DNA of 64,000 nucleotides from Marinilabilia salmonicolor (GTDB lineage Bacteria > Bacteroidota > Bacteroidia > Bacteroidales > Marinilabiliaceae). Within the stretch, counting starts at the first letter, position 1. Every line of letters begins with the position of its first letter. Below, in pieces: positions 37,255 to 56,895 of this stretch. The translations under genes were made by a program, and so were the position numbers. The notes under the pieces are model-generated. The model did no database searches and was not told where the DNA came from. It saw nothing but the letters and a program-made list of their open reading frames with translations. The stretch spans positions 1-64,000 of the forward strand of contig NZ_PVTS01000019.1 in assembly GCF_003003035.1 (NCBI RefSeq), given 5' to 3'.

Positions 37255-38271
37255 TTAAGTTGATTTCCTTTGTTTAAGAGTCGGCGTCAGCACCTTGGTT
37301 GAAAAATTAATTTCAATGCCAGGGTTTTCAAGTCTTTGAAGTAAAAGGCGCATGGCTTCACGTCCTGTCTCATAGCCTTTTTGTTCTACGGTACTGAGGG
37401 GCGGGTAAGCAATGTCAGCATTTGGACCATCTCCAAACCCGATTACCTTTATTTGTTCCGGTATTTTAATGCCTTCTGCCTGAAGGGCCTGCATGGTGGC
37501 GATGGCTGTGCTGTCATTGACCGCAAAGATGCCGTCAATATGTTTTTCTTCAATCAGTTTCATTAAATGTTGTTGAAGGCTGAAAACATATTCGCGGGTG
37601 TCGCACTTGACAATTAATTCTTCATCTGTTTCAATCCCATGCTCTTCCAATGCCTTCAGGTATCCTTCCTTGCGCCTGCTTCCAATTACCAGATGCTGTG
37701 GTGCAGCCAGGTGTAATATGTTTTTACAACCTTTTTCGATGAGGTGGCTGGTGGCTATTTTGGCCCCCAGGAAATCGTCTGTAATAACTCTGTCGGTTTT
37801 TATTTCTTCCACAATACGATCAAAAAATACCATGGGGATACCGTTGTCATAGGCATTCTGGAGGTGTTTGAAATCTCTTGTGGTTTTGCTGACCGACACC
37901 AGTATTCCATCCACCCGGTGATCAATGAGCGCCTGCGTGTCAATGACCTCACGCTGATAATTTTCGTTGGATTGACAAATCATGACGTTGTATCCTTCAC
38001 CGTAAGCAATGTCTTCGATACCGCTGATTACAGATGAAAAAAAGTGATGAACAATTTCAGGAATGATCAACCCAATGGTATTGGTTTTTTGTTGCCGGAG
38101 GCTTAATGCCAGGGCGTTTGGGCGGTAATTAACCTTTTCGGCAAAGGTCTTTACCAGCTTTTTGGTTTCTTCATTAATATCCGGATGATCTTTCAGCGCT
38201 CTTGAAACCGTTGAAGGCGAAAGTTCCAGTATTCGGGCAATATCTTTTAATGTAACGTGATTTGATTTCAT
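37255..38271 (-). CDS. LacI family transcriptional regulator
   Basis: 338 residues. N-terminal HTH 'VTLKDIARILELSPSTVSRALKDHPDINEETKKLV' and hinge 'NYRPNALALSLR' (minor-groove Leu), then a periplasmic-binding-protein-like sensor domain ('TIGLIIPEIVHHFFSSVISGIED', 'DGIFAVNDSTAIATMQALQAEG', 'IKVIGFGDGPNADIAYPPLSTVEQ'). It lies between the maltose operon and the susCDE genes, with candidate operators on both sides. Likely ligand: maltose, a maltooligosaccharide or glucose 6-phosphate (inference). The operators lie upstream of the promoters, so activation is as possible as repression. Confidence 0.93.
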   Translation of the reverse strand: MKSNHVTLKDIARILELSPSTVSRALKDHPDINEETKKLVKTFAEKVNYRPNALALSLRQQKTNTIGLIIPEIVHHFFSSVISGIEDIAYGEGYNVMICQSNENYQREVIDTQALIDHRVDGILVSVSKTTRDFKHLQNAYDNGIPMVFFDRIVEEIKTDRVITDDFLGAKIATSHLIEKGCKNILHLAAPQHLVIGSRRKEGYLKALEEHGIETDEELIVKCDTREYVFSLQQHLMKLIEEKHIDGIFAVNDSTAIATMQALQAEGIKIPEQIKVIGFGDGPNADIAYPPLSTVEQKGYETGREAMRLLLQRLENPGIEINFSTKVLTPTLKQRKST

Positions 38272-52828: not shown

Positions 52829-55162
52829 TTATTGTACAGAAATAAACCGACTTTCCGATTTTTCTGAATCCTTTACGCTGAGGATGTAATCGCCCCGGTT
52901 TATTCCGGGGCAGGTAATGCAAAGATCATTTCCGGCAGGCTGAACCTCCTTTTGATTAAAAACCATCCGGCCGTGTTTGTCGAAAAGCTGAATCTGAACT
53001 GCCCCCTCAAAGGTACCTGTCACCTGAATCGACTGACCTGCTTTTACAGGGTTTGGGAAAACACTCAGTTCGCTTTTATTGTCAGAATCTGAGGTCTGAT
53101 TTATAAGACTATTGTCTGATGTTATGGTTTTTAAATCATTGTAATTTTCATAATCCTCCTGAAGCACATAGATCGCGTAACCACGTGCCGGGGCTTCCAC
53201 CCAAACTCTTCCGTCTCCAAAAACCTCCGTCGTTTGTTCTTCATTAAAAGCGTTAACAAGCGTCTTATTGGTCCATGAACTCCAATCCTGAGGGGTTGCA
53301 TCCACCCAAAGACCTTTGTCAGAGTGGCTGTTGTTGAGAACGACAATGGCGCCACCTTTGCTGTTGTTCCCCTCTCTTCTGGCAACATATACATCATGGG
53401 TGTCGGAAGAAGGATATGGATTTCCTGATTCACTCAGGACAGAGAGGCTGCCATTGAGGTAGGTTTTGCGAATAAAAATAAGTTTTTTAAGATCCTCTTT
53501 CAAAGAAGCAGGAACCTCGATCTGTACAGAGGCATCGTGATTGTCCACAAGGGTTACTCCGTAGAGATGGGGGTAAAAGATGCAGGGTTTTCCTTCGTGA
53601 GTAAGCATGTAGGCATATCCCAGATGCCAGTCTTTGGTAACCCATTTGTCATGTTCTTTGCCGGTGTCATGATTTTCAAGAAAAGTAACTACCGATGTTC
53701 CCGGAAGACTGTTACCATCCCCGTTACGTATCATGCCTGCGTGGTTGAGCCAGTTCATATCGAAACCCGCATCTCCGTTACACATTCCTGTCAATGTTGA
53801 TTTTAAGGGGAAGTCAAAAGCATCGGCATCTGCGCCGTTGGTCGCCACATTGTTTACCCAGCTTTGAATACTTGAAGCAGAACCCCAGTATTCTCCCACA
53901 ATAAATCTTTGCTGATTATTGATGGGCGGCAGGTTTGCAATCCAGTTGGCCACATATTCCTCTTGAAATCCGCGGACAAAATCGAGTCGGTAACCGTCAA
54001 AATTGATTTCATCACTGAGCCATTCACCCCAATTATTCATGCGTGTCTGGACTCTTGGGTCGAAAGTATTGAGATCATTTCCAAACCCTTTGGTGTTGGT
54101 AATGATTTCGTCTCCCGAGCCCCAGTTGCCAAGCCAGTCATTCTCATCAACCGGGTGAAAATAGGAGTAATCCCAGGTAAGGTTGGCTTCCCCGGTTCCG
54201 GTATGATTGATGTATGATATTCCCGTGTTGGTGATGGCTTTCAGTTCGTTGACAGCAAGGTTTTGCCCGTTGTGCCATATCTCAGAAGGATAGAATCCGT
54301 GAGTCTGATCCGCCCATTGCCATTCATCGCCGGACTGCCTGCGTGCGGTTAACTGAATGATGATATCTTTCCCGCCGGGAGCAGTCACTTTAAATTCATC
54401 AATGTCACCTTCCGAATTGATGAATGCTCTGACCGTTTCTCCGGATGCCGGGAAGGTGTTTGTTTCTCCGTTTCCGTTGTTGGGTTCACTTTCCCAGCTG
54501 TAGGAACTTCCAAAACCGCTGTTGTTGTAGTCAATCTGGATGTCGTAGGCACGTTCCTGATACGAAACCGAGTAATCGAGATAGAATCCTTTGAATTTGA
54601 TGTAATAGTCACCAGCGGCAGCATCTTCTATTACCCACTTTATTTCGTTGGTGGGATAGGGAACATATTGCTGACCGTTCCTGAAGGCTTCATCGAAGAC
54701 GTATTCTTTTACTGCCGGATTTGCCTCTGCATCTTCTTCCGATGAATACATGTGATTCAGGATGATGTCTGCATACACCTCCACTTTTGGTTGTCCGTTG
54801 TTGGTGTCATGCATGGCAGCAATCATACTCTCCAGTTCCTGGCGGCTTCCAAACCTTGTCTCGACGGTTCCTTTTTGGTTGTAATTACCAAGATCATAGT
54901 GGTCGAAGATGCCGTAGCCCATATCATAGATTCCCCAGTTTCCTTTAGCCGGCGAGGGAATCCAAATGCCTGTGATACCGATTTCCTTGAACTCGGATGC
55001 TTTGTTGTACAGATTGTCCCACCAGAAACCGTTGTTGGTTTCCGCATCTACTGGTACATCCCAGTAAAAAGCCTGGAGCATAACATCGTTTTGGGCCTGC
55101 ATTGTCAGATTTCCTGACAGCATAAGCATGGCCATGCTTAGCATTGTAAAGATTTTTTTCAT
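52829..55162 (-). CDS. Secreted GH13 alpha-amylase, inserted PPC-like domain, T9SS sorting domain
   Basis: 777 residues. Signal peptide to MQAQ. The GH13 barrel starts at 'VMLQAFYWDVP', with region I 'YADIILNHMYS', nucleophile in 'FDGYRLDFVRGF', Glu in 'FIVGEYWGS' and Asp in 'FLENHDTGKEHD'. Between region I and 'FHPVDENDW' is an insert of ~180 residues (about 145-325) with 'ESEPNNGNGETNTFPASGETVRAFIN' followed by 'GDIDEFKV', the signature of a pre-peptidase C-terminal (PPC) beta-sandwich. A beta domain and T9SS sorting domain ('LSVFPNPVKAGQSIQV', 'IQLFDKHGRMVF') end the protein. Extracellular starch hydrolysis. The membrane AraC regulator lies upstream on the same strand. Confidence 0.92.
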   Translation of the reverse strand: MKKIFTMLSMAMLMLSGNLTMQAQNDVMLQAFYWDVPVDAETNNGFWWDNLYNKASEFKEIGITGIWIPSPAKGNWGIYDMGYGIFDHYDLGNYNQKGTVETRFGSRQELESMIAAMHDTNNGQPKVEVYADIILNHMYSSEEDAEANPAVKEYVFDEAFRNGQQYVPYPTNEIKWVIEDAAAGDYYIKFKGFYLDYSVSYQERAYDIQIDYNNSGFGSSYSWESEPNNGNGETNTFPASGETVRAFINSEGDIDEFKVTAPGGKDIIIQLTARRQSGDEWQWADQTHGFYPSEIWHNGQNLAVNELKAITNTGISYINHTGTGEANLTWDYSYFHPVDENDWLGNWGSGDEIITNTKGFGNDLNTFDPRVQTRMNNWGEWLSDEINFDGYRLDFVRGFQEEYVANWIANLPPINNQQRFIVGEYWGSASSIQSWVNNVATNGADADAFDFPLKSTLTGMCNGDAGFDMNWLNHAGMIRNGDGNSLPGTSVVTFLENHDTGKEHDKWVTKDWHLGYAYMLTHEGKPCIFYPHLYGVTLVDNHDASVQIEVPASLKEDLKKLIFIRKTYLNGSLSVLSESGNPYPSSDTHDVYVARREGNNSKGGAIVVLNNSHSDKGLWVDATPQDWSSWTNKTLVNAFNEEQTTEVFGDGRVWVEAPARGYAIYVLQEDYENYNDLKTITSDNSLINQTSDSDNKSELSVFPNPVKAGQSIQVTGTFEGAVQIQLFDKHGRMVFNQKEVQPAGNDLCITCPGINRGDYILSVKDSEKSESRFISVQ

Positions 55163-55359
55163 TTTACCTGGATTTTGTAGTGAATTATGTGGTCTGGTGT
55201 GATGTAAAGGGATTTTAATATTGGTAAATCCAGACCTTTTTTTGCATTGGCAAGTTGGTAAAACGGAAAGATAAAATCGACTTATTTTGGGTTTTAGGAC
55301 TTTGGTTGTGGTACGGTTTTGTAAAATAGGACGTTTAAGTGATTGTCTTATATAGGGTT
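55163..55359 (-). promoter_or_regulatory. Upstream region of amylase gene
   Basis: 197 nt between the AraC-type regulator and the amylase. Only a weak -7 candidate, TATCTTTC at 55273-55266 on the minus strand, is seen. A weak promoter next to an AraC-type gene would fit positive control, but no operator repeat is obvious. Confidence 0.35.
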
Positions 55360-56895
55360 CTATTTTTCTGTGGAGAAATATTCTCTTGGAGATAATCCTG
55401 TAACTTTCTTGAATGCAAGATTGAAAGTTGATTTTGAATTGAACCCTGCTTCGTAAGCAAGATAGAGGAAGGTCATGTTTTTTGCATCTTCGGAATCCAT
55501 TTTTTTAATGAATTCATTTACTCTGTATTCATTAATGAAGTCGCGGAAGTTTTTATTAAAACAGTCGTTGATGGTTTTTGAAATGGTATGCGGCTTATTG
55601 TCTATGGATTCAGCAAAGCCGGCAAGGGTTAAATCAGGATTAAGGAATGGTTTGGATTCCTGCATGATCATTAGAATCCTGTTGGCCAGTATTCGGTTGA
55701 GGTCATTGATCTTTTCGGTCTTGGGCGGATAAAAAATGGCTTCATTAAAATAGACGAAGTAGAAGATGACAAATAGTTGGATGGAGGAAAGGGAAAGGGG
55801 AATGTCCTGATAATTCCTGAACAGAAGAAGGCCGGATGCAATCAGCCAGAATAGAGATATTCCGGCAATTACGGACATAAGGTTGATGGCACCCGTCAGA
55901 TATAAAAACATCCATTCGGAAGATGCTGCAGGTGTGGTATCTGAGTTTACTTCATTGGGCGAATTGATTGAGAATGCATATGGGTGAGAGGTATTTTCTC
56001 TTTTAGTTGCTTTTTTGTGCCTAAGAAGTGTAAAGATGGAGAGAGAAACGTATGTGAGGAGAGAAATGCTTCCCGTTAAAATAAGGATGGCATCAATGAG
56101 AAAAAGGTTGTTTTTTAAAGAGACTTGTAGCCAGGCTGTCTGCCAAAGCCCCGAAAGACGGAACATGTTAAGGATGAAAGTCAATAAGGCAGGAGTATAG
56201 TGAACCGGCGAAATTGATTTTATTTTTGTAAGGAAAGAGCGGTAAAAGATGAAAACAAGGGGGCCTGCAAGGAAAAGCATCAACTCGAAACCCTGCATTA
56301 ATCTGAATTTCCATAGCGGATTGGAAAACTCATAGATAACGGCTCCCAACAGAACCAATATGAGTGTGAGGGTCCAGATGATGGTATGTCTGGTTTTGCG
56401 GGTGTCGTATTTTTTCTTTTTACTCCTCAACAGAATAATTAGAAATATCCCGTTTAGAATGGCTGCAGACAAGATGAATACAAATACCGGCATGGAGGTT
56501 CTTCCTCCCAAGTCCTGCCAGTTTTGGATGCGTACATCAATATGGTCTTCCGTTTTATCAATCAATGTCCGGTTTGGGAGGTACGAGTTGTCCGATGATG
56601 TTTCAATTTTCATCCAGTCACCTCTGGAAAACTTAAACTGAATGGTGTCAGCAACGTCAGGAATATTTACCATTAGCTTTCCATCAGCTCTTTGTTTCAG
56701 CTGATAGACAGTGTCTCTGATGTTCCAGTTGTTAAAGTTTCCGCATACAAAAATGGGTTCATCTGCAGGAGTGTTTCCCGGCAGAGACTCAACGATGATG
56801 GTGATGCTTTTGTTTTGGGATAGAGAGACAGAATCTGATAAAAGAAAAGAAATCAGCAGGATGAGGATGATTTTATAGTTGATGGTCTTTTGCAT
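55360..56895 (-). CDS. Membrane AraC regulator with periplasmic starch-binding-like domain
   Basis: 511 residues. Residues 1-26 are a signal peptide or anchor. ~30-125 resemble a CBM20/CBM48 glycan-binding beta-sandwich ('DEPIFVCGNFNNWNIRDTVYQLKQ', 'LMVNIPDVADTIQFKFSRGDW'), with the FNNW Trp that stacks on glucose in such domains. About seven hydrophobic helices follow from ~135 to ~395. The C-terminal ~100 residues are an AraC DNA-binding domain ('NLTLAGFAESI..' recognition region; 'NMTFLYLAYEAGFNSKSTFNLAFKKVTGLSPREYF'). The layout suggests direct sensing of periplasmic starch fragments and control of the amylase 197 nt downstream. Function inferred from architecture; the HTH and TM parts are certain, the CBM assignment likely. 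Confidence 0.8.
   Translation of the reverse strand: MQKTINYKIILILLISFLLSDSVSLSQNKSITIIVESLPGNTPADEPIFVCGNFNNWNIRDTVYQLKQRADGKLMVNIPDVADTIQFKFSRGDWMKIETSSDNSYLPNRTLIDKTEDHIDVRIQNWQDLGGRTSMPVFVFILSAAILNGIFLIILLRSKKKKYDTRKTRHTIIWTLTLILVLLGAVIYEFSNPLWKFRLMQGFELMLFLAGPLVFIFYRSFLTKIKSISPVHYTPALLTFILNMFRLSGLWQTAWLQVSLKNNLFLIDAILILTGSISLLTYVSLSIFTLLRHKKATKRENTSHPYAFSINSPNEVNSDTTPAASSEWMFLYLTGAINLMSVIAGISLFWLIASGLLLFRNYQDIPLSLSSIQLFVIFYFVYFNEAIFYPPKTEKINDLNRILANRILMIMQESKPFLNPDLTLAGFAESIDNKPHTISKTINDCFNKNFRDFINEYRVNEFIKKMDSEDAKNMTFLYLAYEAGFNSKSTFNLAFKKVTGLSPREYFSTEK

Follow-up and report, generated by a model that had tools for sequence, protein, structure and literature searches.

Control of PULs in the Bacteroidota has been described in terms of three classes of regulator: SusR-like proteins, HTCS and ECF sigma/anti-sigma systems (PMC3878776). 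SusR of Bacteroides thetaiotaomicron is a one-component starch regulator of the inner membrane that senses on the periplasmic side and binds DNA through its cytoplasmic part (PMC3878776, PMC10936149); its mechanism has been called undefined (PMC6874557). In Vibrio, the membrane-bound AraC-type regulator TfoS couples periplasmic chitin-oligosaccharide sensing to transcription (PMC7564644, PMC5936718); its periplasmic domain is related to hybrid two-component sensors (PMC7564644). The RsgI proteins of Clostridium thermocellum are membrane polysaccharide sensors that control degradative enzymes across the membrane (PMC12203970).

Here, we describe a gene within the window (the whole 64,000-nucleotide stretch of Marinilabilia salmonicolor DNA that was analysed), the predicted product of which joins an α-glucan CBM, seven transmembrane (TM) helices and an AraC-type DNA-binding domain. 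The SusR family resembles this regulator in being one-component, located in the inner membrane, concerned with starch genes and found in the same phylum. However, proteins of the SusR family combine a TPR-like region in the periplasm with a single TM segment and DUF6377 and show no AraC domain and no CBM match, and neither NF058541 nor DUF6377 matched the window regulator. As the SusR reference we took NF058541 proteins adjoining SusA homologues in two genomes. Identity of the regulator with SusR was rejected, as BLASTP gave no significant match to a protein scoring 563.6 bits with NF058541; two SusR-family genes are found at other places in the organism's own genome. An earlier note on this DNA had claimed that SusR differs in make-up, and both the domain content and BLASTP agree with this.

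The HTCS of Bacteroidota share periplasmic glycan sensing, an AraC output and PUL control with the window regulator, but contain histidine kinase and receiver domains, both of which it lacks. The systems closest to it in mode are TfoS and RsgI. TfoS has no α-glucan CBM, unlike the window regulator, and to our knowledge it has no seven-helix core. The outer sensor domains of RsgI are of the CBM type, but RsgI acts by proteolysis and subsequent sigma-factor release, whereas the window regulator carries its DNA-binding domain in the same chain. The glycogen-binding domain of AMPK-β (CBM48) is of the same clan as the window domain and has matching W/K/W glucan-contact residues. AMPK-β also links glucan binding to regulation (PMC2642990), but as a eukaryotic intracellular kinase subunit.

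Overall architecture

The features of the locus are listed in Table 1. Hydropathy averaged over six orthologues places the TM helices of the regulator at about residues 137–157, 169–189, 199–219, 231–249, 266–287, 334–352 and 366–386. The loops between TM1 and TM2, TM3 and TM4, and TM5 and TM6 are basic (for example RSKKKKYDTRKTR), which indicates an N-out/C-in topology and thus a periplasmic N-terminal domain and a cytoplasmic AraC domain. Residues 434–507 match PF12833 with 43.4 bits (cut-off 33.6) and a second match, to PF00165, reaches 27.6 bits (cut-off 26.6), so that the protein belongs to the AraC family by virtue of a C-terminal AraC/HTH_18 domain above the curated cut-off. These HTH domains were the only matches above cut-off in the Pfam scan of the regulator, which found no histidine kinase and no receiver domain. 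The signal peptide, seven helices and AraC domain described in the earlier note are supported by hydropathy and PF12833, and its inference of control without a phosphorelay agrees with the Pfam scan. An AF2 model of the full-length protein calculated without an alignment shows helices in the TM region, but at a pLDDT of 45 is too weak to use. By sequence, an extracytoplasmic sensor, a TM segment and a DNA-binding domain are found in one chain, and the predicted protein is of the membrane-integrated one-component type, TfoS/ToxR-like in mode.

Table 1 Features of the regulator–amylase locus (window coordinates)
Feature	Position	Strand	Description	Basis
CBM-7TM-AraC regulator	55360..56895	(-)	511 aa, ATG start	ORF call, domains, topology, other genomes
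Signal peptide	56818..56895	(-)	Residues about 1-26	N-terminal hydrophobic stretch
Predicted periplasmic alpha-glucan CBM	56500..56811	(-)	Residues 29-132; W57, K88, W94, N108 conserved	Profile alignment
Seven predicted TM helices	55738..56487	(-)	Residues about 137-386	Hydropathy, positive-inside loops
Predicted cytoplasmic AraC-type DNA-binding domain	55366..55662	(-)	Residues 412-510	PF12833 over cut-off
Putative operator site 1	55317..55332	(-)	GTCCTATTTTACAAAA; footprint kept in six genomes	
Putative operator site 2	55278..55300	(-)	GTCCTAAAACCCAAAATAAGTCG; kept in six genomes	
Presumed target, secreted GH13 alpha-amylase	52829..55162	(-)	777 aa, T9SS sorting tail	NCBIfam, TIGR04183/PF18962

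The periplasmic domain

As an isolated single sequence, the domain (residues 29–132) gave no significant Pfam match, AMPK1_CBM being found at E = 0.037. We collected 96 copies of the CBM-like domain and aligned 70 of these (alignment A4). Three positions of the alignment are invariant; in the window regulator they are W57, K88 and E98. The profile of the 70 relatives matched the PDB entries 8dl1, a Bacteroides-type GH13 protein (8e-5), and 1z0n, the AMPK-β GBD (2e-4). In Pfam, AMPK1_CBM was matched by 39 of the 70 members (best 1e-9), the next families being X25, CBM_48 (best 3e-10) and CBM_20. Alignment of the profile with human AMPK-β1 (a sequence entered by hand) using hhalign gave 95.6% and E = 1.3e-8 over 50 columns, and paired W57, K88 and W94 of the window protein with W100, K126 and W133 of AMPK-β1. 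These three AMPK-β residues contact β-cyclodextrin, and mutants bind glycogen less (PMC2642990, PMC4032982). Among 86 copies of the CBM, the lysine is present in 84 and the second tryptophan in 82, while the first tryptophan, counted by a strict pattern, is present in at least 65.

On these comparisons, residues 29–132 clearly belong to the α-glucan CBM clan (CBM48/CBM20/AMPK-GBD), an assignment that became possible because the profile was built from 70 relatives, the window sequence alone falling below the Pfam cut-off. The domain had earlier been noted as CBM-like with a CBM20/48-type motif, and when compared with carbohydrate-binding folds both the profile search and hhalign place it inside this clan. 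An AF2 model of the domain from three sequences is weak (pLDDT 62); its best fold matches, which are no more than suggestive, include CBM25, CBM41, CBM26, CBM20 and AMPK, with Z below 6.3 and among similar-scoring pilin domains. Scans of viral contigs for further relatives found none.

We note that across the Bacteroidota the same domain is also found N-terminally in T9SS-cargo-like or α/β-hydrolase esterase-like proteins (L052–L055 and L085–L107), and that L058, L059, L064, L069 and L070 consist of almost nothing but 3–5 tandem CBM-like domains. As no link to starch is shown for these proteins, the domain does not by itself prove starch binding.

Distribution and linkage to starch genes

Full-length relatives of the regulator were found in six other genomes of the window's family, in which 71 genomes were searched; in a further member of this family (G032) a relative appears as split matches. 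Wider searches found more relatives across the order, class and phylum, including about 40 of the 291 genomes in the order of G529 and five of the 22 in that of G1022. One relative (L009) comes from Anaerophaga thermohalophila. When 54 regulators were parsed, 22 had one copy of the CBM and 32 had two in tandem. A search of the open-access literature found no description of the CBM-7TM-AraC architecture, and regulators of this kind are apparently both widespread and uncharacterised.

In the window, the amylase (NCBIfam alpha-amylase, E = 1.7e-94) lies downstream of the regulator on the same strand after a gap of 197 bp, and with its T9SS-type tail agrees with the secreted amylase previously placed directly downstream. 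Its GH13 region is broken by an apparent insertion at about residues 180–310, and PF00128 is absent from its results despite the strong NCBIfam matches. A starch/maltose utilization cluster (28638–49660) is located a few kilobases from the regulator. Named by sequence reading and partly by BLAST, it comprises GH13 genes, a GH65-like phosphorylase, a β-PGM-like gene, an MFS transporter, a LacI gene, SusC/SusD/SusE-like genes and a GH13 enzyme.

All close orthologues of the regulator are followed directly, on the same strand, by the amylase, although the other genes flanking the pair vary in several of these. Near one such pair (L044:14976-18740) there is a Cas9-like ORF of 1254 amino acids starting MNITLNYMKKILGLDLGAASIGWAI. 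Distant members of the family have other, but still starch-related, partners: an 1854-aa GH13 protein with CBM26 repeats (L046), a SusA-like GH13 (L111), and SusC/SusD proteins (L109, L110 and many of L214–L230) with 41–51% identity to the pair in the window's starch cluster. Not all of the genes linked in this way are orthologues.

To quantify the linkage, we scored a GH13 gene, or SusC/SusD genes of ≥40% identity, within four ORFs of each of 54 regulators outside the window, with 21 CBM-less TM-AraC proteins as controls. The latter are Bacteroidota proteins of about 375 amino acids which have the TM region and AraC domain in common with the regulator but carry no CBM. Starch genes were linked to 42 of the 54 regulators and to none of the 21 controls sampled, so that the glycan link looked for in the neighbourhoods of homologues is borne out. 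The raw script count was 43; L047, near which tblastn found no starch gene and which has a DUF5686 gene downstream, was then discounted. Fisher's test gave p = 6e-11 (43/54 versus 0/21), a value which overstates independence since the members are related. A starch-type gene is immediately downstream on the same strand in 34 of the 54. For 12 regulators (including L047), some of them on short contigs, there is no starch gene within four ORFs. We note L121, L122, L228, L243, L251 and L253 as family members with no starch gene nearby. Four genomes contain an orthologous amylase (61–71% identity) with no full-length regulator.

These counts bear on two other readings of the protein. In the first, it would control starch genes, but the seven-helix core would sense another molecule or a partner protein (a permease, for instance, or a SusC/SusD complex), with the CBM serving only to tether or stabilize it. 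CadC, which detects lysine by way of the permease LysP (PMC5936718), is a precedent for this, and the CBM-less TM-AraC proteins, with their similar TM region, are common enough to indicate that the core can work without a CBM. However, starch linkage is confined to the CBM-bearing class, and the glucan-contact lysine and second tryptophan are retained in nearly all copies of the domain, which makes this reading unlikely. In the second, the domain would bind some other α-glucan (glycogen, dextran or the cell's own) or a different glycan, with the protein acting as a repressor or housekeeping sensor. Glycogen is the ligand of AMPK, the closest characterised relative; the occurrence of the domain in proteins with no starch links is also compatible with this reading, and sequence cannot reveal ligand chemistry. 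The partners, on the other hand, comprise secreted amylases of GH13 that carry T9SS tails, and starch-type SusC/SusD pairs, both of which point to an external α-1,4-glucan, and we regard a different ligand or role as improbable.

The intergenic region

In six genomes, alignment of the DNA between the regulator and the amylase reveals two blocks that are conserved while the sequence around them has diverged; they contain a direct repeat GTCCTA..AAAA. Site 1 is similar to (G)TCCTATTTNNCAAAA and site 2 to GTCCTAAAACNNNAAAnnAGTCG. Four genomes (the window, L041, L042 and L043) have the sites at a spacing of 32 bp, and the other two (L044 and L045) at 42 bp, a difference of one helical turn. The pattern GTCCTA-N20..45-GTCCTA occurs once in the organism's own 4.79-Mb genome, between the regulator and the amylase, and was not found in the starch cluster. 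Nor was the GTCCTA pair found upstream of the orthologous amylases in the four genomes that have no full-length regulator. The paired element thus tracks the presence of the regulator, which gives added support to local control of the amylase.

The repeat could instead serve another regulator, for example the product of the LacI gene at 37255–38271 in the window's starch cluster, with the CBM-7TM-AraC protein merely travelling with the amylase. The site pair is, however, found nowhere else in the genome, that cluster included, and is missing where the amylase has no regulator; moreover, the exact 10-bp change in spacing suits a dimeric factor with paired sites. We consider control by another factor very improbable, and local control by the CBM-7TM-AraC protein to be the better reading of the element.

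Conserved blocks between regulator and target are also present in Cytophagales-type groups, for example CGTGCCATTTTACAAAAATGGCACG, below which AAAGTGG..CGACAG is found, followed in several cases by a TAnnTTTG-like sequence that we take to be the Bacteroidota −7 promoter element. Lying beside the second block, it would be suitably placed for an activator. Upstream of starch SusC genes (L215, L217, L218, L109 and L214) there are palindrome-like blocks (GTGCCATTTTACAAAAATGGCAC and variants), which are a likely operator for distant members of the family.

Proposed mechanism and implications

In our view, the protein is quite probably a one-component transmembrane starch regulator, in which the CBM senses malto-oligosaccharides and the AraC domain activates the adjacent starch genes. 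Malto-oligosaccharides released by surface amylases would be imported to the periplasm, where the CBM48/AMPK-GBD-like domain, presumably located on this side of the membrane, would bind them or other small α-glucans. Binding would alter the arrangement of the seven helices, and probably the dimer state, so that the signal would cross the membrane without phosphorelay or proteolysis. The paired cytoplasmic AraC domains of the presumed dimer would then occupy both phased sites ahead of the neighbouring gene and recruit polymerase. This would presumably activate rather than repress the starch gene, which is the secreted amylase here and elsewhere a different GH13 gene or a starch SusC/SusD operon. 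With a product of the amylase as the putative inducer, the circuit would have positive feedback.

The odds lean slightly towards a broader proposal, that these proteins are a widespread class of starch receptor, a CBM-gated seven-helix transcription factor that replaces SusR in many lineages and in which the presence of one or two CBMs sets the chain-length response. As the contact residues of the CBM are known, the coupling of ligand to transcription across the membrane can be tested with point mutants, and parts of the regulator could serve as malto-oligosaccharide biosensors. Among the regulators of PULs in the Bacteroidota, the CBM-7TM-AraC family would be a fourth, structurally simple starch class, in which a well-understood domain for glucan binding passes its signal directly to an AraC activator.
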